From positions 62,001-126,000 of the forward strand of contig NZ_VAUA01000001.1 of the NCBI RefSeq assembly GCF_005771405.1: a stretch of DNA of 64,000 bases, written 5' to 3'. The translations under genes and the position numbers were made by a program. Positions 48,604 through 63,231 of this stretch are shown in pieces (position 1 is the stretch's first letter; the number at the start of each line of letters is the position of its first letter). A model generated the notes under the pieces. It was not told the DNA's origin and made no database searches. It saw only the letters and a list, made by a program, of their open reading frames with translations. Source of the DNA: Parasedimentitalea maritima (lineage in GTDB: Bacteria > Pseudomonadota > Alphaproteobacteria > Rhodobacterales > Rhodobacteraceae).

Positions 48604-50726
48604 AACCTGAACAGCAATATCCGAAGAATGCCTCCTCCTTACTGGGGGAGGTAAGACGCAGCCCGAGCTATCGTTCACGAAAAAAGTGGAAAAGGTGGGC
48701 GGTCGGATCTGCAATATTACTGCTTTTTCTCGTCTTCATTGGCAGTCATGCCTTTAATAGCTGGGTTGATCGTACCGAACTGCCAGTCACTTTGGCCGAA
48801 ACATCGACCGAGATCCGGGATCGCAATGGCGCATTGTTACGTGCTTACCCGGTTGGGACAGGTATATGGCGGTTGGCTGTACACCCTGATCAGGTGGATC
48901 CCGAATATCTGACGATGTTGGTCCGCTACGAAGACAAGCGATTCTGGTCACACTCTGGTGTGGATATCAGAGCGATGGCGCGGGCGGTTGGGCAAGCCGT
49001 GTGGAATGGTCGGGCTGTATCGGGGGGATCTACGCTGACTATGCAGGTGGCGCGGCTGCTAGAGGATGGCAGCACCGGACGCTGGTCAGGTAAGCTACGT
49101 CAAGCGCGTTTGGCACTGGCGTTGGAACGGCAACTGACTAAACAGCAGATTCTGACCCTCTATCTGACCCACGCGCCTTATGGCGGCAATCTGGAAGGTA
49201 TCCGCGCAGCGACGTTGGCCTGGTTTGGTAAAGAGCCGAACCGGCTAACGCCTTCTGAGTCAGCATTGTTGGTGGCCCTGCCACAATCGCCCGAGCGCCG
49301 TCGCCCCGACCGGGCGGTTGAGACTGCACAACGCGCGCGTGACAGGGTGCTGGTCCGTATGGCAGGTCAACAGGTGATCGACGACGAAGAGATGATGGTG
49401 GCACAGCGCGCACCAGTTCCACGCCAAATGTTGCCGTTTGCTCAATTGGCGCCACATCTGTCTGACCGGATGCGGGCCGAAGACCCGACAACGACGCAAA
49501 TTGATCTAACGGTTGACGCAGGTGTGCAGGAGCGCATGGAGCAGCTGTTGCACAATGCGGCCCAACAGGGCGGCGCACAGATGTCAGCGGCACTAATCGT
49601 GGCGGATGTCCAAACTGGAGATATCTTTGCCTCGGTTGGCTCGCCCGGCTACCGCGATGGAAGCCGGCTTGGCTATGTGGATATGACCCAGGCGCTGCGC
49701 TCTCCCGGATCTACTTTGAAACCTCTTATCTACGGGTTGGCCTTTGACCAGGGATTGGTCCATCCCGAAAGTCTCATCCATGACGGGCCAATTAACTTTG
49801 ACGGCTATGCGCCGCAGAATTTTGACGGCGAATTTCGCGGGGACCTGCGGGTGCGTGAGGCGCTGCAACAGTCGCGCAATATCCCGGTGGTGAAGCTGAC
49901 AAATGAATTAGGTGCACCCAGAATTATGGCGGCCTTGCGCAGGGCAGGTGCCGCGCCCAAACTCCCCGGAGGTGTACCGGGATTGGCCATTGCGTTGGGT
50001 GGGGTTGGAGTCAGCTTACAGGATTTGGTCCAGTTGTACGCTGGATTAGGTGCTGGAGGTCAGGGGCCAGTGTTGCGGTTGCGGCTTGACGCCGAGCTGC
50101 AAAATCAGGGTCGGTTAATCTCTGACGTGGCGGCTTGGCAGGTGATGGACATTCTACGCGGGTTGGCGCCACCACCGGGTGCGCGTGCAGGTGTGTTGGC
50201 CTATAAAACCGGGACATCTTATGGGCATCGTGATGCTTGGGCTTTGGGCTGGGATGGACGTCATGTGATTGGCGTTTGGATGGGGCGCGCCGATGGGACG
50301 CCGGTGCCGGGGGTGTTTGGTGGCGGTTTGGCCGCACCTGTGTTGTTTGAGGCTTTTGGCCGGTTGAAACCTGACTTTGAGCCGTTACCGCCGCCACCGC
50401 CCGCAACGCTGATTGTCAGTTCGGCGGAATTGCCGCAACCTCTACGTCGCTTTCGCCCCCGCACTGCGGCCTTTGAAGAACCAGCAGGTGCGCCGCAATT
50501 GTTGTTCCCTCCGAATGGAGCCCGACTGGCACTAGGGAATGCACCTTTGACTGTAAAGCTTCGAGGTGGCGCAGCCCCATTTCTGGTGCTGGCAAATGGG
50601 TTGCCGGTGACACAGGGGCAACATCAACGCGAGTTCGAAATCCCTAATCCTGGGCAGGGGTTTTCTGCATTGGTGGTGGTGGACAGTGAGGGCCAATCTG
50701 CCCGCACAACGGTGCGCGTGGAATAG
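48600..50726 (+). CDS. pbpC: Penicillin-binding protein 1C (bifunctional transglycosylase/transpeptidase)
   Basis: The 708-residue membrane-anchored enzyme has a short cytoplasmic N-terminus, one membrane segment (about 34-50), a transglycosylase domain with YEDKRFWSHSGVD and GGSTLTMQVARLL, and a transpeptidase domain with the SxxK motif STLK (Ser371-Lys374), SRN in QSRNIPVV and KTGT (536-539). A Pro-rich linker leads to the PBP1C C-terminal domain. The GTG start overlaps the macroglobulin stop, and a coupled pbpC-macroglobulin pair is a well-known bacterial arrangement. Confidence 0.95.
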   Translation: MKPEQQYPKNASSLLGEVRRSPSYRSRKKWKRWAVGSAILLLFLVFIGSHAFNSWVDRTELPVTLAETSTEIRDRNGALLRAYPVGTGIWRLAVHPDQVDPEYLTMLVRYEDKRFWSHSGVDIRAMARAVGQAVWNGRAVSGGSTLTMQVARLLEDGSTGRWSGKLRQARLALALERQLTKQQILTLYLTHAPYGGNLEGIRAATLAWFGKEPNRLTPSESALLVALPQSPERRRPDRAVETAQRARDRVLVRMAGQQVIDDEEMMVAQRAPVPRQMLPFAQLAPHLSDRMRAEDPTTTQIDLTVDAGVQERMEQLLHNAAQQGGAQMSAALIVADVQTGDIFASVGSPGYRDGSRLGYVDMTQALRSPGSTLKPLIYGLAFDQGLVHPESLIHDGPINFDGYAPQNFDGEFRGDLRVREALQQSRNIPVVKLTNELGAPRIMAALRRAGAAPKLPGGVPGLAIALGGVGVSLQDLVQLYAGLGAGGQGPVLRLRLDAELQNQGRLISDVAAWQVMDILRGLAPPPGARAGVLAYKTGTSYGHRDAWALGWDGRHVIGVWMGRADGTPVPGVFGGGLAAPVLFEAFGRLKPDFEPLPPPPPATLIVSSAELPQPLRRFRPRTAAFEEPAGAPQLLFPPNGARLALGNAPLTVKLRGGAAPFLVLANGLPVTQGQHQREFEIPNPGQGFSALVVVDSEGQSARTTVRVE

Positions 50727-50750
50727 CTCCGTCAAGCTAGTATTGATGGT

Positions 50751-50880
50751 CTCCCGTATTCGCGCAAGCCACCGGCTGGTGCCGGTACCCCTTGCGGACT
50801 TGGGCGTAGCGCCGCGCGATGCGCGGCGCTACGCCCAACGGGAGGTCAGCCTCCGATAGGAGGTGAGCGACGGGCGGGAG
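50751..50880. repeat. Inverted pair of a structured intergenic repeat
   Basis: The gap between convergent pbpC and the membrane-protein gene is almost entirely structured. A perfect 18-base-pair stem with a three-base loop occupies 50800-50838. Each arm (TTGGGCGTAGC...) ends a half-element whose outer ends are CTCCCG (50751-50756) and its complement (50875-50880). The left half holds ACCGGC-TGGT-GCCGGT (50771-50786) nested in GCAAG/CTTGC. The right half, read on the minus strand, holds CTCCCGCCCGTC, then ACCTCC-TATC-GGAGG, then CCGTTGGGCGTAGC. The right half is repeated with identical spacing at 59932. Confidence 0.8.
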
Positions 50881-50895
50881 TGGTGGGTTTGAAAA

Positions 50896-52938
50896 TCACC
50901 GCCGACCTTCGCGCATCCAGGCAACCGTGATGAAGAAAGATGCCAGCAATAGCACTAGCCACGGTGGCATCAATTGTGATTGCACTACCGACAATGTTTC
51001 ATAGGCATCGCGTGGCGTTAATCCGATCCAGCCCCTTCCGGCTGCGGGTCGTCCGGCGCGGACGTTGCGCAGAACAGGAACGCCATCTTGCAGTCGCAAT
51101 AGACCACCACGTGTGGGTTTGATCACGGGCTGCAAGACGTCTGTCGTGGCCATGGTTTCCTCGAACTCGCGTGGAGCAGCGGGGCCCAGACCAATGACGG
51201 CGGATTGGTTTCCCTCGCTGAGCCGATACAGGCCGATTTCAGGCCCTTCAAAACCGGTCTCCCATAGCCCCGGAATACGTTCGGCCAGGGTAAGTTCTAC
51301 GGTGGCGCCGTCGGGTTGGGTGACGGTGACCGGGCCGATGGTGTCGTCCAGCGTTCGGCGTAGGATGCGCATACGTTGACCCGTGGCCTCGGCCCAGAGT
51401 GCTTCCTCTTCCAGCTCCGGTTCTTTCATCATCCAGTGTGCCAGCCGACGCAGTAATTCCAGTTGCGGCCCGCCGCCTTCGTAGCCACGGCTCCAGAGCC
51501 AGGCATGATCTGATCCCAATAAGGCAACCCGACCTTCACCCACTCGGTTCAGCACCAGCAATGGGCGATCTTCCAAGCCAGACATCACTACATGACCCTG
51601 TGGCTGATCTATCTCAATTTGACGCAACCAGCGCCCCCAAGTGCTGACGTCGCCCAGATCAGCGGTCACGGGATGTCGTTGTCCAAGATCGGTCACGGAA
51701 GGCTGATAGGGAAGCTCAATAACCCGCGCGGTTGGGCGTGCAGGAAGGACGGTGGATAGGGGGGAGCGATAGATGCTGTCGGCAGTGGCGAAATCGGGCC
51801 CGGCGGCCACCAAAACAGCGCCCCCCTTGGCCACGTAATCGGCGACATTGTCCAGATAGATCGCGGGCAATATTCCGCGCCGCTGATAACGATCAAAAAT
51901 GATCAGGTCAAAATCGTCGATCTTTTCCAGAAACAGCTCGCGAGTGGGGAAAGCGATCAGAGACAGCTCGTCCACCGGCACCCCATCTTGTTTTTCGGGA
52001 GGGCGCAAAATGGTGAAATGGACCAGATCCACAGCACTGTCGGATTTGAGAAGATTACGCCAAGTGCGGCTACCGGGATGGGGTTCACCTGACACAAGCA
52101 AAACGCGCAGCCGGTCACGCACTCCGTTGATCTGTACCAGCGCAGTGTTGTTTCGCCCGGTCAGCTCGCCTGCTTCTTCGGGTACCGTAAACTGAATGAC
52201 GTTGCGCCCCCCGTGGGGCAGAGTCAGCGGTAGATCAATGTCGGTGCCAATCGGCAAAGTAAATCGTTGCGGGGGAGCCCCGTCGATTGAGATTTCTAAA
52301 GGTGCCAGAGGCGTGTTTTCTGGTGCGGCGCCCTGATCCTCGATGCGCAGGGTCAGGGTTACAGGTTCCCCGATGATCGCAAACCCCGGTGCGTTTCGGA
52401 CAATCAGGCGGCGGTCCCAATCAGTTTCTTTGCCGGTCATCAACAGGTGCAGTGGCGCAGGTAGGGTTGGCGCATTTTGAACATCGTGAACCTGACCATC
52501 CGACAGCGCAATGATGCCCGCGATCCGTGCGCGGGGTTCTTCGGCCAAAGCTTCGGAGATTGCGGTCATTAGCTGCGAGCCGGTATCTCCTTCGCCGTCG
52601 GCGAGCGAGATCCAGCGGGTCTCGGTATTAGGGCGATCTGTCAGGTGTTCGGTCAGTTCCTGCTTGGTAACTGCCAGTTGTGTTGAACGATCTGAGAGTT
52701 GGTTGCTGGCCGTTTCATCCGTAACCACGAGAACGATATCGCTCAGCGGCGCACGATCCTCGACCTGATAGACAGGTCCCGACAGCGCGGCGAGCAGAAC
52801 CAAAGCAGACAGGCCGCGAAGCGCCCAACCGGACAATCCCCGCCACAGGGCTGCCGCGATGCTGAGCAGCGTAATTGCAGCAAGTGTCCAGATTACCACC
52901 CAAGGGACCAGCGGATCAAAAAGGATTGTCTGTGTCAT
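50896..52938 (-). CDS. Large membrane protein of MoxR-DUF58 operon (GATase-like/BatB-like)
   Basis: The 680-residue protein has two N-terminal membrane helices (about 10-28 and 35-55) and one near the C-terminus (LVLLLASFFITVAWM). Between them lie a vWA-like segment (DIVLVVTDETAS, IAGIIALSDGQVHD), an Ig-like stretch and a class I glutamine-amidotransferase-like region (LRVLLVSGEPHPGSRTWR, DLIIFDRYQ, GGAVLVAAGPDFA, GEGRVALLGSDHAWLWSRG). Related roseobacter proteins are annotated glutamine amidotransferase or hypothetical. Its start overlaps the DUF4159 gene (ATGA), and it is the last gene of the operon. Function is unknown but tied to the MoxR complex. Confidence 0.78.
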   Translation of the reverse strand: MTQTILFDPLVPWVVIWTLAAITLLSIAAALWRGLSGWALRGLSALVLLAALSGPVYQVEDRAPLSDIVLVVTDETASNQLSDRSTQLAVTKQELTEHLTDRPNTETRWISLADGEGDTGSQLMTAISEALAEEPRARIAGIIALSDGQVHDVQNAPTLPAPLHLLMTGKETDWDRRLIVRNAPGFAIIGEPVTLTLRIEDQGAAPENTPLAPLEISIDGAPPQRFTLPIGTDIDLPLTLPHGGRNVIQFTVPEEAGELTGRNNTALVQINGVRDRLRVLLVSGEPHPGSRTWRNLLKSDSAVDLVHFTILRPPEKQDGVPVDELSLIAFPTRELFLEKIDDFDLIIFDRYQRRGILPAIYLDNVADYVAKGGAVLVAAGPDFATADSIYRSPLSTVLPARPTARVIELPYQPSVTDLGQRHPVTADLGDVSTWGRWLRQIEIDQPQGHVVMSGLEDRPLLVLNRVGEGRVALLGSDHAWLWSRGYEGGGPQLELLRRLAHWMMKEPELEEEALWAEATGQRMRILRRTLDDTIGPVTVTQPDGATVELTLAERIPGLWETGFEGPEIGLYRLSEGNQSAVIGLGPAAPREFEETMATTDVLQPVIKPTRGGLLRLQDGVPVLRNVRAGRPAAGRGWIGLTPRDAYETLSVVQSQLMPPWLVLLLASFFITVAWMREGRR

Positions 52939-55706
52939 TGTCCCAACCTGTCCAGCAGTGCAGGCACATGCACCTGATCGGATTTATAGTTGCCGGTCAG
53001 CACATGCATCACCAGATTGACACCAAAGCGATAGGCCAGCTCGCGCTGACGTTCACCGGCAAAACCACGTCCCACCGGCAACAGTGGTCGCCCGTTACCG
53101 TCTACCGCCCAGGCCGCACCCCAGTCATTGCCGCCGATCACTACCGGTGTCACCCCGTCGTTAAGATTGCGAAATGGCATGCCTTCTATCTGTTCCGCAT
53201 CAGCTGGTGCAGCTTCGACCCAAAGCTCGCCCCGCTGGTGACGGCCGGGAAAGTCCTGCAGTAGATAAAAGGCGCGGGTCAGCACATGATCTGCCGGCAA
53301 AGGTTCCAGAGGCGGAATATCCAATGGGCGTGCCAGTTGTTGCAGTTTGCGGGCGTTGGGGCTGTTGGCACCTGATCCGGCAAGGTTTGCATCCCGCGTG
53401 TCGAACAACACCATACCGCCGGCGCGAAGGTAAGCGTTCAGCTTGGCATAGGCCTCGACGGAGGGGATTGGCTGATCGGTAGTGATTGGCCAATACAGTA
53501 ACGGATAGTAGGCAAGCTCGTCGCGTTCCAGATTTACCCCTACCGGTTCTGAAGGTTCGATTGATGTCCGAAATCTCAATGTGCTGGACAGCCCGCGTAA
53601 CCCGTCGTGGGCAATTCCATCCACCTGATCAACTCCGGTCAACACATGTGCCAGTGCAAGCTCAGAGCTGAGGCCTAGCAGACCCTGATCCTGTTGTGCC
53701 TGTGCCTGATACGCTGGAAGGCCCAGTCCGCCAGCTAGGACAAGGACTAAGATCATGGCGGCGCTGCGCGATCGATGCAACAGGCCGGAAACCAACAATG
53801 ATGCCGCCACATCCAGCGCCAGAAAAACCAATGCCAAGCTTAGCAATATTCCACCCAAAGCCCGTTCCGGAGCCGCAACTGTTCCGATAACCGGCACACC
53901 TGCGGGCCAGGCCGAAGGACGCAAAACATCATCGGATCGTAGCACATTCCGCGCCAGTTTCCGGCTACCGCTGTCATAAAGCCCTGGACGCAGATCAGGA
54001 CCGACAAGCTCAGTCATCAATTTTGGTCCGTCCACCCCTGACAGGGTACCTGCGTCGCTGAGACGGCCAAATCCATCCAGAATACCAATTGGCGTCCAGG
54101 TTGTTCCTTCCATCTCAGCAAGGCTTGGGGGTTTCGCAGCGGTTGAAACAGCCAGCCGTTCCAACATGTCAACAAATAAGCCTGAGAGAGGCAGGGTGGT
54201 CCATTCGGCATTGGCCGTGACGTGGAACAGGACAATCTGACCTTGTCCCAGTGTCTTGCGGGTGACCAACGGGGTGCCATCACCCAATTCGGCAATCACC
54301 CGTGCTGCCAGATTCGGGTCCGGTTGGGCCATGACCTGAGCGCTGACTGTAACTTCGTCGGGGATGGCCAAACCATGAAAAGGAGAATCCTCGACGAAGG
54401 GAGCCAAGGTTTTGGGTTCGCCCCAACTCATTGCGCCACCGAGGCTGCGGCCACCGCTACGCAGCCGTACGGGCATCAGAGGGTGCTCTTCCGAGCGAGA
54501 AATGTCGCTGGCCGCAAGCCGAGGTCCGGCAAACCGCAACAGCATGCCGCCCTGTTCAACCCAGTCAGTGAGTTTTTGTTCTTCATCCGACGCCAGCTGT
54601 GCCACATCTGCTAATATGATTACATCAGGGTTGGCGGGCAGCAGATCGCCCAATGCGCCTTCGTACAGTTCAGAAGTGGGGGCCAGAGCCTGACGCAGGT
54701 AATGCAGCGGTGACAGTAATACCAATCCCTCGTTGTCAGTCTGCGACGAAATCAGTGCAACTTCGCGTCGGCGCAGGCTGTCGTCGGTCAGGGCGACCAT
54801 ACCAGCGGATCGCGCGCCTTTCAGTTCAAACCGGGTAATGCGGGCGCGTAGCTCTGAGGGCAGGATCAACTTGGCCGAGGCAGTTTCTGCGTCCGGGGAA
54901 AACTCTGCGGTGGCAGAGGCGAGTACTCTCTTGGTTCCGCCGGGATCACGCCCCTGAGCTAGAACCGTGATTTGCTCAGCCGAGCCGGGTGTACTGCGGA
55001 TAACCTGCAATTCGATGGCGCCATCGGCAAATTTTGCAGGCAGCAGCCCCAGTGTATTTATGGCGGTTTGATATATCTTCAGCTCGCCACGATCGCGCAG
55101 GGTTGCTGTCAGTTGGTCGCGATTGGAGTAGTCTAACCCGTCGCTAAACCACAGGGTGTCAAATTCAACCTCGCTCGCGACGATGTAATCCAGTGTAGCA
55201 GTGATCTGGTCTGGACTTGGCTGCCAGGGTTGCGGCAACAGACCTGCCACCTGCTTGCGCCAGACATCAGCTGACAGGAACTGCAGCGGCTCAGGCATCG
55301 TCAGCCGTATCACTGCCACGGTGCGCCCGGCACGGCCTGCTTCGTTTAGCTGCGCAGTAATCTGGTCACTGGTCTGGGTCCAGTGATCGGCGCCTGCCCA
55401 GCTGGCATCTAACACCAGCAACAGTGGTCCGTTACCCGTATTGCCCTGTGTGGGGTTCAACACAGGTCCTGACAACCCGATGATAGCTGCCGCAACCGCC
55501 AGCAAACGCAAAAGTAACAACCACCAGGGAGTGCGGTCTGACAGGCTGTCGTCATCATTCAGCCCCAACAAAAGCGTCACAGCCGGGAATACCCGACGCA
55601 CTGGTGTAGGTGGCACGGCCCGTAGCAACAACCACAAGATAGGCAGTGCTAGCAATCCCAGCAAAAGCCAGGGCGTGGTAAATCCAATGCCTGCCAATGT
55701 GGTCAT
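52935..55706 (-). CDS. DUF4159/BatA-domain membrane protein
   Basis: The 923-residue protein begins with a BatA-like N-terminal domain with two membrane helices (residues 8-26 and 57-76; GFTTPWLLLGLLALPILWLL). A vWA-like segment (LLLVLDASWAGADHW) follows, then a long extracytoplasmic region, two helices near 655-700, and a C-terminal DUF4159 domain (ERDELAYYPLLYWPIT; YLRAGGMVLFDTRD; LTRAFYLLQDFPG). Such proteins accompany MoxR ATPases and DUF58 proteins in many alphaproteobacteria; the function is undetermined. The ATG at 55706 overlaps the DUF58 stop; the longer frame is rejected. Confidence 0.85.
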   Translation of the reverse strand: MTTLAGIGFTTPWLLLGLLALPILWLLLRAVPPTPVRRVFPAVTLLLGLNDDDSLSDRTPWWLLLLRLLAVAAAIIGLSGPVLNPTQGNTGNGPLLLVLDASWAGADHWTQTSDQITAQLNEAGRAGRTVAVIRLTMPEPLQFLSADVWRKQVAGLLPQPWQPSPDQITATLDYIVASEVEFDTLWFSDGLDYSNRDQLTATLRDRGELKIYQTAINTLGLLPAKFADGAIELQVIRSTPGSAEQITVLAQGRDPGGTKRVLASATAEFSPDAETASAKLILPSELRARITRFELKGARSAGMVALTDDSLRRREVALISSQTDNEGLVLLSPLHYLRQALAPTSELYEGALGDLLPANPDVIILADVAQLASDEEQKLTDWVEQGGMLLRFAGPRLAASDISRSEEHPLMPVRLRSGGRSLGGAMSWGEPKTLAPFVEDSPFHGLAIPDEVTVSAQVMAQPDPNLAARVIAELGDGTPLVTRKTLGQGQIVLFHVTANAEWTTLPLSGLFVDMLERLAVSTAAKPPSLAEMEGTTWTPIGILDGFGRLSDAGTLSGVDGPKLMTELVGPDLRPGLYDSGSRKLARNVLRSDDVLRPSAWPAGVPVIGTVAAPERALGGILLSLALVFLALDVAASLLVSGLLHRSRSAAMILVLVLAGGLGLPAYQAQAQQDQGLLGLSSELALAHVLTGVDQVDGIAHDGLRGLSSTLRFRTSIEPSEPVGVNLERDELAYYPLLYWPITTDQPIPSVEAYAKLNAYLRAGGMVLFDTRDANLAGSGANSPNARKLQQLARPLDIPPLEPLPADHVLTRAFYLLQDFPGRHQRGELWVEAAPADAEQIEGMPFRNLNDGVTPVVIGGNDWGAAWAVDGNGRPLLPVGRGFAGERQRELAYRFGVNLVMHVLTGNYKSDQVHVPALLDRLGQ

Positions 55707-56593
55707 GAGGTTGAGTTCTCCAGTGCATGATACAGCCATAGCAGCGCTGTCTGAGCGCTGTCGCCGGTGTGATGCAGCCCCATCCGCCATCCAGTAGCCC
55801 GGCACAGTTGATCGAGTGCATCGCGACGTTCTGCCAGGCGTTCAAGATAACGATCCCGCAATGCCGAGGCCTTGAGCGTTTCATGTCGCAGCTGACCTGT
55901 GACGCTTTCAAAAACTGTGCGACCGGTGAAGGGAAACTGCTCTTCACTGGGGTCTAATATCTGCAGCAATACCCCGCGCAATCCGCGATCTGCTGCCTTG
56001 GTAAGGGCCAGTTGCAATTCGTCAAAGGGGCCAAGAAAATCAGAGATGAACAATCCGCGTGCATGTGGGATCATCGCGTGGTGCTCAGGCGGGGCGTAAT
56101 CGGTACTGTCGTCGTGGCTTAGGGCCTCAGCCAGACGCAGGATCTGCATATTACCACTGCGCGGCGGCAGCGTGGTCCCCGTCAACCCAACCCGTTCACC
56201 TGCGCGCACCATCAGGATAGACGCGGCCAGCGCCAGCTTGCGGGCCCGGTCAATTTTCTGTGGCAGATCGGGGTTTGATGCAAAGCGCATTGAACCACCC
56301 TGATCCACCCAGATGTGTACGGTCTGGGCGATCTGCCATTCGCGTTCACGGATGAATTGCTGATCACCCCGTGCCGAACGGCGGTGGTCGACCAGACGAC
56401 GGCTGTCGCCCGGCTGGGCTGGGCGGTATTGCCAGAAGTCATCACCCATTCCAGCGCGCCTGCGACCATGTTCGCCCAATAGCACCGATCCAGCCAACTG
56501 TTCAGCCTGCACCAACAAAGGTGGCAAGCTGTCGGCTTCGACCTCAGCGCGATGTCTGAGGTCGGTGGCGTTGGAGGCGGCGGTGGTGGTCAC
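55703..56593 (-). CDS. DUF58 domain-containing protein
   Basis: The 296-residue protein holds the DUF58 signature DDFWQYRPAQPGDSRRLVDHRRSA (about 52-75, here with its family D-x-R core) followed by a vWA-like fold (HIWVDQGGSMRFAS). The MIDAS pattern DxGGS replaces DxSxS. DUF58 proteins pair with MoxR ATPases and may act as their substrate adaptors. It overlaps both neighbours by four bases, giving strict coupling. The first 30 residues have no obvious domain. Confidence 0.9.
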   Translation of the reverse strand: MTTTAASNATDLRHRAEVEADSLPPLLVQAEQLAGSVLLGEHGRRRAGMGDDFWQYRPAQPGDSRRLVDHRRSARGDQQFIREREWQIAQTVHIWVDQGGSMRFASNPDLPQKIDRARKLALAASILMVRAGERVGLTGTTLPPRSGNMQILRLAEALSHDDSTDYAPPEHHAMIPHARGLFISDFLGPFDELQLALTKAADRGLRGVLLQILDPSEEQFPFTGRTVFESVTGQLRHETLKASALRDRYLERLAERRDALDQLCRATGWRMGLHHTGDSAQTALLWLYHALENSTS

Positions 56594-57597
56594 GCTGCCG
56601 CCTTGGCCCGGGTCAGTGAGGTGACAGTGTCTTTGATCAGGTCGGCCAAACTGTCACCGCGTGCACGGGCGGCAAAATTCAGCGCCATCCGATGGCTGAG
56701 AACGGGGTGTGCCATGTCAATTACATCTTCGGCGCTGGGCACCAGATGGCCCTGCAAAACAGCGCGTGCGCGCACTGCCAGCATCAACGCCTGTGCTGCG
56801 CGTGGTCCCGGCCCCCAAGCAACAGTCTGTGCGACCTGTTCCGAGGCGCCGGGTTCGTCCGGGCGGAAGGCACGAACAAGATCAAGGATCAGTTCAACAA
56901 TTGACTCGCCCACAGGCATCCTGCGCAGCAGGGTTTGTGCGGCAATCAGTTCATCCCCTGTGAACACCTGCACCGCCTTGGTGTCGATGGTGCCGGTGGT
57001 AGCCAACAGGATTTCACGTTCGGTATCTCGGTTGGGGTAATCCACGTCGATCTTTAGCAAGAACCGGTCCAGCTGGGCCTCGGGCAGGGGATAGGTGCCC
57101 TCTTGTTCAATTGGGTTTTGGGTGGCCAACACATGGAAAGGTGCGCCAAGAGGCCGGTCTTCACCAGCGACAGTGACGGTTTTCTCCTGCATTGCCTGTA
57201 ACAATGCCGACTGGGTGCGCGGGCTGGCGCGGTTAATCTCGTCCGCCATCAGCAACTGACAAAACACCGGGCCGGGCACAAATCGGAACGACCGGTGGCC
57301 ATCTGTGTCGGTATCCAGCACCTCAGAGCCAAGGATGTCGGCGGGCATCAGGTCAGGTGTGAATTGAATGCGGTTGCCATCCAGACCCATCACTGTGGAC
57401 AAAGTTTCCACCAGTAAAGTCTTGCCCAGACCGGGCAATCCGATCAGCAGGCCATGGCCACCGCAGAGCAATGTGCTGAGCGTCAGATCCACCACCCGTT
57501 CCTGGCCTATGAATTGCCGGGTGATCGAATCCCGTGCCTGTTGCAGCTTCTTTTGCAGAGCTTCAATTTCGATCAGCAGGTCATCGGGTTCGGACAT
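56590..57597 (-). CDS. MoxR-family AAA+ ATPase
   Basis: The 335-residue ATPase has the MoxR motifs: Walker A GLPGLGKTLLVETL (about 53-66), Walker B LLMADEINRASPRTQ (about 116-130), sensor region LATQNPIEQEGTYPLPEAQLDRF, and the C-terminal lid. MoxR proteins act as chaperone-like ATPases for vWA-domain partners; those partners are the three genes downstream. The ATG at 57597 follows GGGGA; the frame upstream of it lies in DUF1285 and is not family-like. It is divergent from the DUF1285 gene with a 64-base gap. Confidence 0.95.
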   Translation of the reverse strand: MSEPDDLLIEIEALQKKLQQARDSITRQFIGQERVVDLTLSTLLCGGHGLLIGLPGLGKTLLVETLSTVMGLDGNRIQFTPDLMPADILGSEVLDTDTDGHRSFRFVPGPVFCQLLMADEINRASPRTQSALLQAMQEKTVTVAGEDRPLGAPFHVLATQNPIEQEGTYPLPEAQLDRFLLKIDVDYPNRDTEREILLATTGTIDTKAVQVFTGDELIAAQTLLRRMPVGESIVELILDLVRAFRPDEPGASEQVAQTVAWGPGPRAAQALMLAVRARAVLQGHLVPSAEDVIDMAHPVLSHRMALNFAARARGDSLADLIKDTVTSLTRAKAAA

Positions 57598-57661
57598 GAC
57601 ATTCCCCTTGTCGCGGATATATGGTGTCACTGTATCGTGCTGAGGGGAAATGGCAAAAGTA

Positions 57662-58243
57662 ATGAGCAAACAAAAAGACGTGAGTCCATCCGCCGAAGGC
57701 ATCGCCGCATCGGTTAAAGCTGTCAAGAATGGTGGATTACCGCCTGTGCACCTGTGGAATCCGCCGTTTTGCGGCGATCTGGACATGCGGATTGCGCGCG
57801 ATGGCACTTGGTTTTACCTTGGTACTCCGATCGGTCGCTTCGAATTGGTCAAACTGTTCTCGTCGATTCTAAAACGTGAAGACGGCAAATACTTCCTTGT
57901 CACTCCGGTTGAGAAGGTCGGCATCACCGTTGATGACGCCCCATTTGTAGCTGTGGATTTCGAAAGCAGTGGCAATGGTGATCAGCAGGTTTTGACATTC
58001 GAAACTCATGTTGGTGACAGAGCTGTCGCAGGGGCAGATCACCCGATCCGCGTAGTGCGTGATTCTGAAACTGGTGAACCGTCACCATATGTGTTGATCC
58101 GCGCAGACCTTGAGGCGTTGATAGATCGCAAAAGTTTTTACCGGTTGGTGGATCTAGGCGCACATCATGAAGGCTGGTTTGGGCTCTGGTCTTCAGGAGA
58201 GTTTTTCCCGGTGATTCCTTCAGCAGACCTGGAAGGCATTTAG
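57662..58243 (+). CDS. DUF1285 domain-containing protein
   Basis: The 193-residue protein has the DUF1285 core GLPPVHLWNPPFCGDLDMRIARDGTWFYLGTPIGR and a C-terminal RADLEALIDRKSFYRLVDL segment. Function is unknown; it may be a PH-like or nucleic-acid-associated fold. In related genomes it is often divergent from the MoxR operon, as here. An in-frame ATG at 57650 is only two bases from AGGGG, too close for good initiation, so the ATG at 57662 (MSKQKDVSPSAEG) is preferred with low certainty. Confidence 0.88.
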   Translation: MSKQKDVSPSAEGIAASVKAVKNGGLPPVHLWNPPFCGDLDMRIARDGTWFYLGTPIGRFELVKLFSSILKREDGKYFLVTPVEKVGITVDDAPFVAVDFESSGNGDQQVLTFETHVGDRAVAGADHPIRVVRDSETGEPSPYVLIRADLEALIDRKSFYRLVDLGAHHEGWFGLWSSGEFFPVIPSADLEGI

Positions 58244-58369
58244 CGGCCCGGTCAGATATGCAAAATTTGAACCAATACTCACACTACATTTTCACACTGG
58301 TATGGCAGTTATTGATCAATTCGGTCGCTGAATTCCGGATGAGCCAACCGTAACCGCGAAAGATTTCTG

Positions 58370-59122
58370 ATGCCCAAATTCGCAGCCAACATCTCGCTCT
58401 TGTTTTCTGAATTGCCCTATCTGGATCGATTTCAGGCCGCCGCCGCCGCTGGGTTCGAAGCTGTAGAAATATTGTTTCCCTACGAAACTGCGGCGAAGGA
58501 GACACAGCGAGCACTGTTGGCCAATGGTTTGGAACTGCTGCTTATCAATGCGCCGCCTCCGAACTATACGGGTGGTGAACCGGGATACGCTGCCATTCCA
58601 GGTGGTGAAGATCGGTTCCAGCGCGATATTCGACGAGTGTTGCGGTACGCAGACGTCCTGCGGCCAGGAATTATCCATGTGATGGCAGGATATGAAAAGG
58701 GCGAAGCGGCCCAGCAGACTTTTGTCCGCAATCTGAAGTGGGCTGCGGATCAAGCCCCACAGCAGCAGTTCACCATCGAACCGCTAAATAGCGGGGACCA
58801 GCCTGGATATTTTCTGGATGACTATAATCTGGCGCGCGAAGTTTTAGCTGCTGTGGATCGGCCTAATGTGGGGCTGCAATATGATGCTTATCATGCCCAG
58901 TTGATCCACGGTGACGCGGCCAAGGTTTGGGACGAATTTTCTGCCAGCGCTGTACATGTGCAAATTGGCGCGGCCCCATCCCGAAGTGAGCCGGGCAGCG
59001 GTCCGGTTGATTTTGACGCGCTGTTCGCGGCTATCGACGCAAGTGCCTATGACGGATGGGTCAGTGCAGAATATAACCCATCAACGGCGCGCACCGAGGA
59101 CAGTCTGGGCTGGATGTCGTAG
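58370..59122 (+). CDS. hyi: Hydroxypyruvate isomerase family protein
   Basis: The 250-residue TIM-barrel protein of the xylose-isomerase-like superfamily begins MPKFAANISLLFSELPYLDRF and shows FEAVEILFPYE, FTIEPLNSGDQPGY (catalytic-region glutamate) and LQYDAYHAQLIHGD metal-ligand motifs. It should interconvert hydroxypyruvate and tartronate semialdehyde (or be the OtnI paralogue). No glyoxylate or gcl genes are adjacent. Length is typical at about 255. Confidence 0.92.
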   Translation: MPKFAANISLLFSELPYLDRFQAAAAAGFEAVEILFPYETAAKETQRALLANGLELLLINAPPPNYTGGEPGYAAIPGGEDRFQRDIRRVLRYADVLRPGIIHVMAGYEKGEAAQQTFVRNLKWAADQAPQQQFTIEPLNSGDQPGYFLDDYNLAREVLAAVDRPNVGLQYDAYHAQLIHGDAAKVWDEFSASAVHVQIGAAPSRSEPGSGPVDFDALFAAIDASAYDGWVSAEYNPSTARTEDSLGWMS

Positions 59123-59215
59123 CGGCATTCACATGGGCTGTGCAGCAACGCACTGGTCTTTTCATTCCATTTATCGCATATGAAAATACATCACAGATAA
59201 CCATGAGACGTTGAC

Positions 59216-59452
59216 ATGATCCCAGCTCGTTTTGCTCCCATTCTGTTTGGCCTTATCCTGTCTGGAATTATGTCTTGTATCGTGACGCTGGTGGTTTCGA
59301 TCAAGAATTTCGGTTTTGAGGCCCCGATGTTTTCATCTTGGGTCGCATCGTGGAGCTTTAGCTGGCCAATTGCATTTGCAGTGGTGTTGGTCGTGGCGCC
59401 ACTGGTGCGGCGGCTGGTGGGGAAATTGGTGAAACAACCCATCGAAAGTTAG
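59216..59452 (+). CDS. DUF2798 domain-containing small membrane protein
   Basis: The 78-residue protein has two membrane helices (about 6-30 and 46-66) with the pattern RFAPILFGLILSGIMSCIVTLVVS and SWSFSWPIAFAVVLVVAPLVRRLV, matching DUF2798. Function is unknown. It stands alone, 93 bases after hyi. Confidence 0.88.
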   Translation: MIPARFAPILFGLILSGIMSCIVTLVVSIKNFGFEAPMFSSWVASWSFSWPIAFAVVLVVAPLVRRLVGKLVKQPIES

Positions 59453-59484
59453 GTTTGCAGGTTATATGGGACTTGCACTCTTGA

Positions 59485-59856
59485 TCACATAGCGCAGCGA
59501 AGACCATTATTGGCATCGATCTCCTGGCGTGGAAAACCAATTCTACCCGCGTCCAACTCCACAACAAAGCCGCCATTTGCCCAAGACCATGTCCCGCTAC
59601 CAAGCACTTTGGCAAAGGCGTCACAATCGCGCCCAAGATACAGCGTTTCGATGCCAGTGATGACCTGTGTCATTGCCCCGGTGCCAGTAAAACGTGCCAC
59701 CGGATACAGCGATTCCAGTACGACACCATCTGAGTTATTGCTGAATCTGTACTGATGACCTTCGGATGAAACATAGATCAGTTCCATCTGAGCCAATGCC
59801 ATAATTGGTTGGTTTGTGGTCAGAATGACAGCGGCAACTGCAAACAGGTTTTTCAT
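59485..59856 (-). CDS. Small secreted protein of unknown function
   Basis: The 123-residue product has a signal peptide (MKNLFAVAAVILTTNQPIMALAQ) and a mature beta-rich part of about 100 residues with two cysteines (CDAF and LRCAM) that could form a disulphide. I do not recognise a family. A GGGGGG-rich ribosome site lies about eight bases upstream of the ATG. A structured repeat begins 75 bases upstream of its start. Confidence 0.75.
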   Translation of the reverse strand: MKNLFAVAAVILTTNQPIMALAQMELIYVSSEGHQYRFSNNSDGVVLESLYPVARFTGTGAMTQVITGIETLYLGRDCDAFAKVLGSGTWSWANGGFVVELDAGRIGFPRQEIDANNGLRCAM

Positions 59857-59931
59857 GATTCAAGCCCCCCAACTTTATAGTTTCGCAGCGGTTGTGTTCA
59901 CGCAAGGTGTTTAAAATGGGACAACGGTGGT

Positions 59932-60005
59932 CTCCCGCCCGTCATCGACCTCTTGGCAGAGGCACTCTTTCCGTTGGGCGTAGCCTGTGCCGCCTACGGC
60001 ACAGG
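59932..60005 (+). repeat. Second copy of the structured intergenic repeat
   Basis: CTCCCGCCCGTC (59932-59943) is followed by four variable bases, hairpin ACCTCT-TGGC-AGAGG, seven to eight variable bases, then CCGTTGGGCGTAGC (59971-59984), then hairpin CCTGTGCCG-CCTA-CGGCACAGG (59984-60005). Blocks and spacing equal the right half of the 50.8-kb element: 12 + 4 + 37 bases. One stem pair changes from C-G to T-A, which preserves pairing. Confidence 0.8.
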
Positions 60006-60426
60006 TGGGTGAATCACGAAGGTCGAAACCCTTTCGTTAACGATAGTGCTTTTAAGGAATGCTGCAAAAAACTGGTTGCGAGACACGGTACCGCGCAGAT
60101 GGGCTGGGCAGTGGGTAGTGTTTCTCGATAGCGCCCCGGTCCAATAGAGCCCTGATGCTTCTGAAGTCAGATCCAGCGGGGAATTGCGGTTAGGACCCAC
60201 AATGGTAGGCAAATTGCAAACCTGGTGAACGGGTCGGGAACTGGCTGTGCAACAGGTCAGGAAATGGATCCCGAGCGAAGCGAAACACCAATGTGCTGGC
60301 CTGGTCTCGCAACAGCACCGCGCAAGGCGCGGTGCCTGGCCCAAGACTGTTTTGGTGTGAGCGGCGCAGTCGGTTCACCAATCAGGCGCGGGAGTGTTTG
60401 GTGGTCCCCGAGGGCCATGCCAGTGT
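60006..60426. other. Repeat-rich intergenic region between polA and a secreted-protein gene
   Basis: This 421-base region contains no gene I can support. It holds a nine-base-pair hairpin GCACCGCGC-AAG-GCGCGGTGC (60315-60335). On the minus strand this is preceded by TTGGGC and, further up, by CTCCCGCGCC, a possible diverged third copy of the intergenic repeat. The rest shows only short dyads. polA transcription enters it from the right. Confidence 0.5.
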
Positions 60427-63231
60427 CTAGTGCGCCTCGGCCCAGTTGGCCCCACGACCTGCGTCAACGATCAGCTTCACGTCCAGATGTACCGCTGGAT
60501 CAGCGGCGTTCTCCATAACCGATTTTGCGGTGGCGATGGTGTCATCGACAGCATTCTCGGGAACTTCGAACAGCAGTTCATCATGTACCTGCAACAACAT
60601 GCGAGCTGGTAGGTGGGCGATGGCATCCGGCATCCGGATCATCGCGCGGCGGATCACGTCAGCTGCAGTGCCCTGGATCGGTGCGTTGATCGCGGCGCGT
60701 TTGGCAAATCCGGCACGGGGACCTTTGGCGGCAATTTCCGGCGTGTGGATCTTGCGGCCAAACAGCGTTTGCACATAGCCGTGTTCTTTGGCGAACTCGA
60801 CGGTGTTGTCCATGTATTTGCGGATGCCGGGGAAGCGTTCGAAATAACGGTCGATAAAGCCCTGCGCCTCGGCCCTTGGAATACGCAGGTTGCGGGCCAG
60901 ACCAAAGCCCGAAATGCCGTAGATGACGCCAAAGTTGATACCCTTGGCTTGGCGACGAATGTCAGGTGTCATTTCGTCCAGTGGCACACCGAACATTTCC
61001 GAGGCGGTCATCGCGTGAATGTCTATACCATCCGCAAAGGCCTGTTTCAGCGCATCGATGCCTGCGATATGGGCCAGAATGCGCAATTCGATCTGGCTGT
61101 AGTCGAGCGACAACAGCACATTGCCGTCTTCGGGAATAAAGGCCTCACGGATGCGGCGCCCTTCCTCGGACCGCACCGGGATGTTTTGCAGGTTGGGATC
61201 GGACGAGGCCATGCGGCCGGTGTTGGCGCCGGTCTGAATGTACGAGGTATGCACACGACCAGTGTCGGCGTTGATGTGGTCCTGTAGCGCGTCTGTATAG
61301 GTCGACTTCAACTTCGACAGCTGCCTCCAGTCCAACACTCGCGCTGGCAAGTCGTGTTCGGTGGCCAGATCTTCCAAAATATCGGCCCCAGTGGCGTAGG
61401 CGCCAGTCTTACCTTTTTTACCACCGGGTAGCTCCAGCTTGCCAAACAGGATCTCACCCAACTGTTTGGGTGATCCGACGTTGAAGGTTTCGCCAGCCAG
61501 CTCATAGATCTCGGCCTCAAGCCCCGCCATCTTCTGGGCAAAGGCGTTGGACATGCGGCTCAGCGTATCGCGGTCGACTTTGATGCCGTCCATTTCCATC
61601 TTGGTCAGAACCGGAACAAGCGGACGTTCCAGCGTTTCATAAACGGTGGTGACTTTTTCCTGATGCAGCTGTGGTTTGAACAGTTGCCACAGGCGCAGGG
61701 TGATATCGGCATCCTCGGCCGCATAAGGCACTGCATCGCTGATCGGAACCTTGTCAAAGGTGATCGCGGACTTACCCGTGCCCAGCAGCGGTTTGATCGG
61801 GATTGGGGTGTGATCCAGATAGCGTTCAGACAGGGTGTCCATGCCGTGATTATGTTTGCCGCCGTTCAACGCGTAGGACATCAGCATGGTGTCATCAATC
61901 GGCGCTACTGCGATGTCTTGGCGAGCGAAAATCTTGGCGTCGTATTTCATGTTCTGGCCGATCTTCATGATCGCTGGATCTTCCAGAACGGGCTTTAACA
62001 TCGCTAGAGCTTGCACAATTGGCATCTGATCCTTGGCCAGCTCGTCGCTGCCAAACAGATCATCTGCCGCAGCCTCGCGGTGCGTCAGCGGAATATAGCA
62101 GGCCTGGCCCGGTTCCACGCAAAGCGAGATGCCAACGAGATCCACAACCATTGAATCGAGACCTGTGGTTTCGGTATCTACAGCTACCCAGCCGCGCTGA
62201 TGGATCTGGTCGATCCAAGGCTGCAACTCTTCGGCACTGGTCACGCAGGTGTATGCATCACGATCAAACGGAACCGCTTCGGGGGCTGCAACTTCGGCTG
62301 CCTGAGGTGAGGCTTCGGGGATGACCGGAGCCTCTTGCCCTAGCTGATCCGCCATCCGCTTGGTCAGAGTGCGGAATTCCATTTCCGCAAGGAAAGCCAG
62401 CAGCACCTCAGGGTCCGGGTCCAGAACCTCAAGATCTTCGATGGTGAAGTCCAGCTCCATGTTGCAGTCCAGCTGTACCAGCGTTTTGGACATTTCGATC
62501 TGCTCACGCTTGTCGATCAGGGTCTGTCGGCGCTTGGGCTGTTTGATCTCTTCGGCGCGATCCAACAGGCTTTCCAGATCACCAAATTCGTTGATCAGGA
62601 GAGCGGCAGTCTTGATACCAATTCCGGGCGCTCCGGGAACGTTGTCGACGCTATCGCCAGCCAGCGCTTGCACATCCACAACGCGTTCCGGGCCAACACC
62701 GAACTTTTCGATCACGCCGTCGCGGTCGATGCGTTTGTTCTTCATCGCATCCAGCATTTCAACGCCGCCGCCAACCAGCTGCATCAGGTCTTTGTCCGAA
62801 CTGATGATGGTGCAGCGCCCACCGGCGTCCCGGGCCTGGCAGGCTAGCGTCGCCATGATGTCGTCGGCCTCAAACCCTTCGACCTCTTTGCAAGCGATGT
62901 TGAAGGCGCGGGTGGCGTCGCGGGTCAGCGGAAACTGCGGGCGCAGGTCTTCGGGCGCAGGGGGGCGGTTAGCCTTGTAGAGGTCATACAGGTCGTTGCG
63001 GAATGTCTTGCCCGAGTGGTCAAAAATCACCGCCACATGGGTTGGTGCATCTGGGCCAGTGTTGCCCTCGACATAGCGCTGCAGCATGTTGCAGAACCCC
63101 GCAACCGCGCCAATCGGCAACCCGTCGGATTTACGCGTCAGCGGCGGCAACGCGTGATAGGCGCGAAAGATAAAGGCAGAGCCGTCGATCAGATGCAGAT
63201 GGCATCCCTTGCCGAATTCACTGTTGCTCAT
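60427..63231 (-). CDS. polA: DNA polymerase I
   Basis: The 934-residue polymerase has three domains: 5'-3' exonuclease (about 1-290; FRAYHALPP, KEVEGFEADD, SSDKDLMQL), a 3'-5' exonuclease with intact DTE motif (VAVDTETTGLD, near 345), and the polymerase domain with motif A SLDYSQIELR, motif B RRQAKGINFGVIYG and motif C VHDE (QVHDELLF). It fills gaps in repair and removes RNA primers. The ATG at 63231 has GGAGA eight bases upstream; a TTG five codons earlier is less likely. Confidence 0.98.
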   Translation of the reverse strand: MSNSEFGKGCHLHLIDGSAFIFRAYHALPPLTRKSDGLPIGAVAGFCNMLQRYVEGNTGPDAPTHVAVIFDHSGKTFRNDLYDLYKANRPPAPEDLRPQFPLTRDATRAFNIACKEVEGFEADDIMATLACQARDAGGRCTIISSDKDLMQLVGGGVEMLDAMKNKRIDRDGVIEKFGVGPERVVDVQALAGDSVDNVPGAPGIGIKTAALLINEFGDLESLLDRAEEIKQPKRRQTLIDKREQIEMSKTLVQLDCNMELDFTIEDLEVLDPDPEVLLAFLAEMEFRTLTKRMADQLGQEAPVIPEASPQAAEVAAPEAVPFDRDAYTCVTSAEELQPWIDQIHQRGWVAVDTETTGLDSMVVDLVGISLCVEPGQACYIPLTHREAAADDLFGSDELAKDQMPIVQALAMLKPVLEDPAIMKIGQNMKYDAKIFARQDIAVAPIDDTMLMSYALNGGKHNHGMDTLSERYLDHTPIPIKPLLGTGKSAITFDKVPISDAVPYAAEDADITLRLWQLFKPQLHQEKVTTVYETLERPLVPVLTKMEMDGIKVDRDTLSRMSNAFAQKMAGLEAEIYELAGETFNVGSPKQLGEILFGKLELPGGKKGKTGAYATGADILEDLATEHDLPARVLDWRQLSKLKSTYTDALQDHINADTGRVHTSYIQTGANTGRMASSDPNLQNIPVRSEEGRRIREAFIPEDGNVLLSLDYSQIELRILAHIAGIDALKQAFADGIDIHAMTASEMFGVPLDEMTPDIRRQAKGINFGVIYGISGFGLARNLRIPRAEAQGFIDRYFERFPGIRKYMDNTVEFAKEHGYVQTLFGRKIHTPEIAAKGPRAGFAKRAAINAPIQGTAADVIRRAMIRMPDAIAHLPARMLLQVHDELLFEVPENAVDDTIATAKSVMENAADPAVHLDVKLIVDAGRGANWAEAH

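Follow-up and report, generated by a model that had tools for sequence, protein, structure and literature searches.

We analysed a 64,000-nt stretch of the Parasedimentitalea maritima genome (contig NZ_VAUA01000001.1, positions 62,001 to 126,000; hereafter the window), which carries two intergenic copies of a structured repeat, at 50.75 and 59.93 kb. We computed its copy number, covariation, better-folding strand, and position and orientation behind stop codons. The reading we favour, to which we give about an even chance, is a family of the Rhodobacteraceae that resembles repetitive extragenic palindromes (REPs) and bacterial interspersed mosaic elements (BIMEs), lacks a GTAG head, has been amplified in some genomes and is retained at the 3′ ends of genes, where it probably forms a hairpin barrier in both directions. 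A sequence-only reading of the window had suggested a structured intergenic repeat with covarying stems, comparable to REP/BIME elements, for which many copies, mostly at gene 3′ ends, would count as support; copy counts, covariation and placement bear this out. Two observations go beyond it: the better-folding strand is the one antisense to the adjoining gene, and there is a strong bias in where the repeat lies and how it is oriented at stop codons.

The window copies comprise the following features.

50751 to 50880, minus strand: complete element of 130 bp, CTCCCG...CGGGAG, with two inverted modules around a common palindrome (direct sequence reading).
50833 to 50880, minus strand: left-type module, CTCCCGCCCGTC-N4-hairpin-...-CCGTTGGGC; the best covariance-model match, but one of four training sequences.
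50751 to 50805, plus strand: right-type module, CTCCCG...CTTGGGC with stem ACCGGC/GCCGGT; inverted partner of the left module (model match with E 7e-8, G000:C1:112749-112829).
50800 to 50838, no strand: central palindrome P3, 18 bp with a 3-nt loop, common to both modules (sequence; folding z; two-sided changes in 6/16 pairs among 46 elements).
59932 to 59979, plus strand: single left-type module (half element), a training sequence of the covariance model, 75 nt from the start of a minus-strand open reading frame (ORF).
59984 to 60005, plus strand: second hairpin of the half element, CCTGTGCCG-CCTA-CGGCACAGG (sequence; in the predicted folds of both strands).

Read directly, minus-strand 50880–50828 and plus-strand 59932–59984 (53 nt each) share, in order and at equal spacing, CTCCCGCCCGTC (12 nt), four free bases, a 5-bp stem with a 4-nt loop, and CCGTTGGGCGTAGC (14 nt), just as first described. 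The first stems, CCTCC-TATC-GGAGG at 50.75 kb and CCTCT-TGGC-AGAGG at 59.93 kb, differ by the reported C-G to T-A exchange, which keeps pairing (CCTCC/GGAGG versus CCTCT/AGAGG). The further stem ACCGGC/GCCGGT is also present, as ACCGGC-TGGT-GCCGGT on the plus strand of the 50.75-kb copy; the equivalence of the three stems as half-elements is not borne out, the module with this stem being of a different type, and the supposed pair of half-elements at 50.75 kb is a single element made of two inverted modules. The imperfect hairpin of the left-type module at 50833–50880 fits the complementary (plus) strand best, the right-type module at 50751–50805 has lost the AA-GC mismatch described below (CTCCCGT), and the hairpin at 59984–60005 has no sequence relation to P3 at 50.8 kb. 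In computed folding, the two 50.75-kb stretches holding P3 lie far below shuffles (z −6.75 and −7.32); the 59.93-kb copy does not stand out in this way (plus strand z −0.58, minus strand −2.00).

TTGGGCGTAGC occurs three times exactly in the window and six times with at most one mismatch, against 1.27 expected (0/100 shuffles reach six). The 11-mer core alone is not enriched genome-wide (10 matches versus 12 for the reversed control), and the core word is therefore no evidence by itself. The two-block pattern CTCCCGCCC-N20-45-TTGGGCG gave 7 matches in the same genome and none for the control. Window enrichment, the two-block pattern and the covariation tests led us to reject a chance origin.

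A covariance model (R1) built from four copies gave 28 matches at E≤1 in the P. maritima genome (G000), with 14 below 1e-4; the 28 include the four training copies, and one full element may contribute two of them. Eight genomes of the genus hold 23–69 R1 matches each at E≤0.1. At this threshold a match was present in 40 of the 61 genomes searched, outside the genus mostly 1–3 weak ones, with more in G014 (35), G022 (16) and G012 (5). The sequence-only reading would have fallen had these copies been the only ones or had pairing not been conserved; both were checked and neither is the case. Among 72 inspected genus copies, 46 are complete inverted pairs, with the CGGGAG end 123–130 bp after CTCCCG, and 26 are not. 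Similar stretches occur on two plasmid records. No match to the repeat was found in a phage collection, which counts against a phage origin.

When one genome from each of 84,980 species was scanned for a sequence pattern, at least 119 stretches came up. The scan required CTCCCGCCCGTC and CCGTTGGGC, so their conservation across species is by choice. By genus name the 119 listed stretches belong to Rhodobacteraceae or Rhodobacterales, a family membership that we presume for most of the names, except for one Roseospirillum record, whose match resembles a short internal repeat, and one record labelled Nocardioides. The latter (L249, JAHVJD010000003.1, labelled Nocardioides marinus) carries an element and shares an upstream-gene cluster with the Leisingera locus L202; it may be mislabelled or contaminated. 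A second model (R2) at E≤1e-3 matched in 39 of 246 Rhodobacteraceae genera (one genome per genus), a patchy distribution in which counts are lower bounds, 19 candidates having been scored per genome. Three nearly complete element-rich genomes, G003, G004 and G212, gave 56, 67 and 82 matches at E≤0.01. On the chromosomes of G003 and G004 elements are denser in the part of the replichores near dnaA (Kolmogorov–Smirnov p 0.0001 for G003, 0.0009 for G004); in G212 the trend is weaker (p 0.09).

Covariation was examined in two alignments. The first (A5) is a MAFFT alignment, not fitted to structure, of the 46 full elements, which were selected by their CGGGAG end. Its closing stem, P2, P3 and the base of P4 are paired in 94.0% of cells, versus at most 54.4% with partners slid. 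Two-sided changes occur in 15 of 32 pairs; shuffles average 10.0 and 0/500 reach 15. A weaker signal comes from further pair types (29 versus 26.0 in shuffles, reached by 35/500). The closing stem proves nothing, because it scarcely varies and was used to choose the elements. The second alignment (A6) holds 117 matches, taken from 98 of the 119 cross-genus loci and fitted to R1. Here 88.2% of P2 cells are paired, and covariation scores 0.516, versus 0.153 in shuffles and at most 0.159 when slid; the count of pairs with two-sided changes is the same as in shuffles (11 versus 10.5).

Support also comes from bases outside the fitted model. Those 12 from either end (n12:n-12) are Watson–Crick in 179 of the 189 modules, out of 247, that have canonical flanks (GC 137, AT 22, TA 14, CG 6). 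Rare modules among 138 swap CGTC/TCCC for other blocks that pair, for example CCTG/CAGC in two and GACT/AGTC in one. Left and right modules have a common foot, CCC/GGG, followed by AA opposite GC (44/46 left, 40/46 right). The next pair is C:G in 46/46 left modules, and in right modules G:C (28/46), C:G (6) or A:T (2). In examples of left modules the folding program may favour a shifted lower stem, which most right modules disallow by inspection. The expected pairing register scored best in 122 of 247 modules, with 61 and 48 one base off, which may reflect varying loop length and a coarse score. In cross-genus modules the 6–7 bases before CTCCCG are purine-rich, often with G runs; by eye this is not so in the window's genus.

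Of the two strands, the one complementary to CTCCCG, which is antisense to the adjacent gene, gives the better module hairpin. An A·C mismatch on one strand is a G·U pair on the other, and in the P2 stems of the CTCCCG strand (234 of 247 modules have the stem) A·C outnumbers G·U by 70 to 20, versus 166 to 208 in shuffled middles. Counted by genus label (273 modules, 41 hand-given labels), A·C is in excess in 20 and G·U in 3, the rest being ties (sign test p 0.0005). Tetraloops on the CTCCCG strand are TNNC in 98 of 141 cases, which is GNNA on the other strand, and GNNA in 1 of 141; by label the bias is 24 versus 0, the rest again ties. U·C mismatches beside a covarying pair are tandem G·A on the other strand. 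The complementary strand is also the more stable one in 231 of 247 modules with RNA energies and in 234 with DNA energies. The idea that the CTCCCG strand is a folded 3′-untranslated-region (3′-UTR) RNA was dropped, A·C outnumbering G·U. P3 has no clear strand preference (full elements: GU 4, AC 1; half elements: GU 14, AC 18), which is what a role on both strands would predict. Both the d(cGNNAg) tetraloop motif of DNA and sheared tandem G·A pairs are known. In the GNNA loops here the third base is C in 64 of 98, A in 20, T in 13 and G in 1; mostly C, they are therefore not the GNRA loops typical of RNA, which weakly favours single-stranded DNA.

Placement was scored against genes called with a home-made caller. 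In the genus set, 63 of 70 classified copies follow a same-strand gene, none is divergent and 30 lie between tandem genes (2 of 72 were dropped for edge position or overlap). Across genera, just 3 of 138 modules overlap a gene; with these and five lacking an upstream gene removed, 105 of 130 modules lie in sense behind a gene, versus 520 of 1058 control gap sides. The median distance from module to stop codon is 26 nt, and 75 of 127 cross-genus placements are convergent and 7 divergent. This sense orientation directly behind the stop codon is the least explained fact about the repeat.

The complete window element illustrates the arrangement, occupying most of a 169-bp gap between two convergent genes.

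48600 to 50726, plus strand: convergent neighbour, a PBP1C-type penicillin-binding protein (Pfam Transgly, Transpeptidase, BiPBP_C); its stop lies 24 nt from the element.
50896 to 52938, minus strand: convergent neighbour of 680 aa without a Pfam match at E≤1e-5; CTCCCG lies 15 nt from its stop.

Genes related to the 50896–52938 ORF precede an element in four other genus genomes (cluster L001, L046, L047, L050, L153). The 59.93-kb copy is one of the 7 of 70 genus copies that are not downstream of a same-strand gene.

Comparison within and between genomes suggests both amplification and inheritance. Modules of G102 have an identity of 0.754 to one another, versus 0.596–0.647 to those of five other genomes, which we read as a sign of genome-specific amplification. 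Conversely, 15 G003–G004 module pairs with related upstream genes have an identity of 0.842, versus 0.651 for other pairs, an apparent sign of stable inheritance. One convergent site, followed in seven of the eight genus genomes (in the eighth, G006, contig breaks divide it), holds a complete element in three, a half in one, a decayed copy in one and none in two. The two element-less genomes (L323, G000:C22:99400-100800; L324, G001) have a different long near-perfect hairpin there, GACAGCATAG..CTATGCTGTC, and are too diverged to give a clean empty site.

A hairpin fitting one strand, the AA-GC mismatch, inverted pairing and amplification in one genome together lead us to a REP/BIME-like working of the family. 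It shares with E. coli-type REP/BIME elements a short imperfect hairpin that fits one strand, AA opposite GC as a stem mismatch, the mosaic of inverted pairs, intergenic sites at 3′ ends and a genome with its own flavour. The AA-GC stem mismatch has been described for E. coli REPs (PMC8266576). In the terms of the two classes, the repeat is an imperfect palindrome on one strand, extragenic and multi-copy, as REPs are, and 46 of 72 genus copies are inverted pairs around P3, as in BIMEs. It differs in the shared central palindrome, the strong sense orientation behind stops and the length of its modules (48–55 nt in the window).

Under this REP/BIME-like reading the unit would be an imperfect hairpin module, on the bottom strand 5′-GCCC-AA-n...(often GNNA)...n′-GC-GGGAG-3′, which occurs either singly, next to a second GC-rich hairpin, or in inverted pairs built around one long common palindrome. 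Copies would have multiplied within genomes through a putative enzyme that recognises the folded single strand, much as TnpA-REP recognises E. coli REPs. They would persist at 3′ ends since P3 pairs about equally on either strand and would thus give both convergent transcripts a terminal hairpin, protecting the mRNA against 3′–5′ exonucleases and impeding read-through and antisense transcription. The likeliest benefit would be such retention at gene ends, by a hairpin of use to both transcripts. Target duplications of at least four bases are single cases only, as expected of single-strand transposition. Any mode of spread, and any action as RNA or as single-stranded DNA, is putative. The family offers a clean test case in marine Rhodobacteraceae, being numerous, variable between related genomes and strongly oriented to stop codons, and its measurable strand preference can help to separate single-stranded-DNA from RNA models. 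If it does shield or end transcripts, it would be a 3′-end feature in many genera of Rhodobacteraceae that lies outside Rfam coverage.

Several observations weigh against the reading just set out. A GT(A/G)G head is not conserved, following TTGGG[CG] in 84 of 247 modules, and by inspection the better-folding strand has none 5′ of its hairpin. The REP-associated transposase that might have been expected was not found: Y1_Tnp, the RAYT type (REP-associated tyrosine transposase), is absent from the P. maritima genome and from 14 of 20 element-bearing genomes. Orientation is incomplete, since 25 of 130 modules are not in sense, nor is the 59.93-kb window copy, and mobility alone does not explain the sense orientation to the gene. 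Single-strand transposition might also give a replication-strand bias, and no clear one is seen: in three genomes, with dnaA taken as the origin and the best 150 of 205 matches, 25/42, 31/56 and 30/46 lie on the leading strand (p 0.28, 0.50 and 0.054). Within-genome cohesion is weak outside G102 (G000 0.596, G004 0.637, G014 0.648, G003 0.665, and G022 0.713 from 15 pairs). Triloops have no clear strand preference (of 63, GNA on the CTCCCG strand in 8 and on its complement in 13), and just 67.2% of A6 cells are paired in the part of P3 that was modelled. Nor do the elements stand in for intrinsic terminators, the strict signature of which occurs at 11–19% in all classes. The fit of A6 to R1 and the motifs required by the species scan introduce circularity, and related genomes are not independent samples.

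Y1_Tnp over the cut-off was found in 6 of 20 element-bearing and 0 of 12 element-poor genomes, two of the latter with weak sub-threshold matches, and there may be a loose link between repeat and transposase. In one survey (PMC2817692), RAYTs with a link to abundant REPs turned up in gammaproteobacteria only. Measured against that description, the missing head and the absence of the transposase from most genomes mean that the repeat is not a member of the RAYT-linked REP family. Another comparison is with the CGTC-tagged REPs of alphaproteobacteria (Di Nocera et al. 2013, PMC3733652). These share a conserved CGTC by the hairpin, an alphaproteobacterial host, inverted dimers, the lack of a dedicated transposase and sites downstream of coding regions. 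They are described with stems of 8–9 bp that almost invariably start with A-T pairs, and mostly a CCA-like tail. Here, in contrast, CGTC lies inside the hairpin arm and is replaced by pairing blocks in the rare variants (CCTG/CAGC, GACT/AGTC), and no A-T start is seen. Base composition after CGTC and the replacement variants thus show neither a terminal unpaired CGTC nor an A-T stem start, and membership as so described was rejected. How transposase-less CGTC repeats spread is treated there as an open question (PMC3733652).

The strongest competitor, possible though we doubt it, is a vertically inherited RNA module. In such a case the GA-rich strand would be transcribed, either in the 3′ UTR of the convergent gene or as an antisense transcript, and its tandem-G·A hairpin would be bound by a protein or form an RNA 3′ end, kept for regulation rather than mobile. 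The 15 G003–G004 pairs with related upstream genes (0.842 versus 0.651) fit this, as do the short distance to stop codons, the 75 of 127 placements in which the folding strand is the sense strand of the opposing gene, and an RNAalifold consensus of 46 elements that holds the closing stem and P3. The distribution fits poorly: the repeat is patchy at genus level, G102 has its genome-specific flavour, and the state of the repeat at one orthologous site ranges from complete through half and decayed to absent. Between tandem genes the folding strand could only be antisense RNA, and a GNNA third base of C in 64 of 98 loops is not RNA-typical GNRA.

Among known RNAs, the cuckoo RNA/CcsR small RNAs of Rhodobacter, with their cuckoo-RNA motif, invite comparison, as by eye many modules have a CUCCUCCC stretch on their CTCCCG strand. 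They differ in that here the better fold is on the opposite strand and there is neither a U-tract nor an Rfam match. Rfam covariance models gave no match at E≤1 in window positions 50000–60600, just an unrelated serC leader at the gathering threshold when 17 of the 119 cross-genus loci were scanned, and none at E≤0.5 in six genus loci; on these scans a known RNA family was rejected, in agreement with the earlier failure to recognise a named family. No description of the repeat was among the matches listed in the open-access literature, and a search for its sequence words gave unrelated papers only.

Somewhat less probable again is a class of 3′-end element distinct from REPs: a module of folded DNA (or antisense RNA) that is strand-specific, lacks a linked transposase and is placed and oriented at stop codons family-wide. 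Its G·A-rich, often GNNA-capped template-strand hairpin would be read by a novel factor that both spreads it and acts at transcript ends.

We consider it unlikely that the repeat is a bidirectional terminator for convergent genes, in which P3 and the modules would halt RNA polymerase, perhaps helped by Rho that loads onto the C-rich strand by the stop codon. The convergent bias, the lack of divergent placements in the genus, elements that occupy most of the gap, and the other long near-perfect hairpin found in two element-less genomes at one orthologous site all point that way. A U-tract is missing, however, with four or more T in the 8 nt after P3 in just 4 of 138 modules, and many copies lie between tandem genes (30/70 in the genus). 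By the strict test intrinsic signatures are about equally frequent with and without modules (the 11–19% above), and by a loose test convergent gaps score 0.50 per side with and 0.53 without a module. Tandem gaps score 0.77 with and 0.45 without by the loose test, a comparison confounded by module gaps being twice as long.

It seems improbable that the repeat is a miniature inverted-repeat transposable element (MITE), ending in CTCCCG/CGGGAG and mobilised by a DDE transposase. It is small, non-coding and multi-copy like a MITE, has inverted ends in 46 of 72 genus copies and occurs on two plasmids. Target duplications were sought in 46 elements at offsets 0–13 and k 3–9, with orthologous copies kept in; old duplications could have decayed. 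There is a slight excess of 3-base direct repeats 10–11 bases outside the ends (4/46 and 3/46 versus 0.68 and 0.80 expected), but no other offset has a clear excess, and direct repeats of four or more bases occur in at most 1 of 46 at any offset. The lack of a clear target-site duplication, common half elements and the orientation bias relative to genes are unlike MITEs, and no partner transposase was seen, no systematic search having been made.

Integron attC sites carry boxes of consensus RYYYAAC and GTTRRRY, and the notion that the repeat is a similar single-strand recombination site is hardly credible: the position behind stop codons, the better-folding bottom-strand hairpin and GTTGGGC, which fits GTTRRRY, agree with it, but the opposite arm is TCCCGCC, so that the R box is missing and the reading contradicted, integron integrase exceeds the TIGR02249 cut-off in 0 of 18 element-bearing genomes (weaker tyrosine-recombinase matches occur in all 18 and in all 14 controls), and the window neighbours are core-type genes, with no cassette arrays seen and none searched for.

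A second recurrent motif, TGCTGAGA..GGGGCAGGT.TG.CCC, with its own hairpin, occurs at L029, L200, L225 and L242 and, by eye, at L126, L154 and L214. No Rfam match to it was found in six genus loci, of which only L029 holds the exact motif, or in L242. In several loci it stands soon after a half element. Two variant elements, L117 and L137, have an extra long hairpin, ATGAARYGCTCC..GGAGCAYTTCAT, inserted before the central palindrome.

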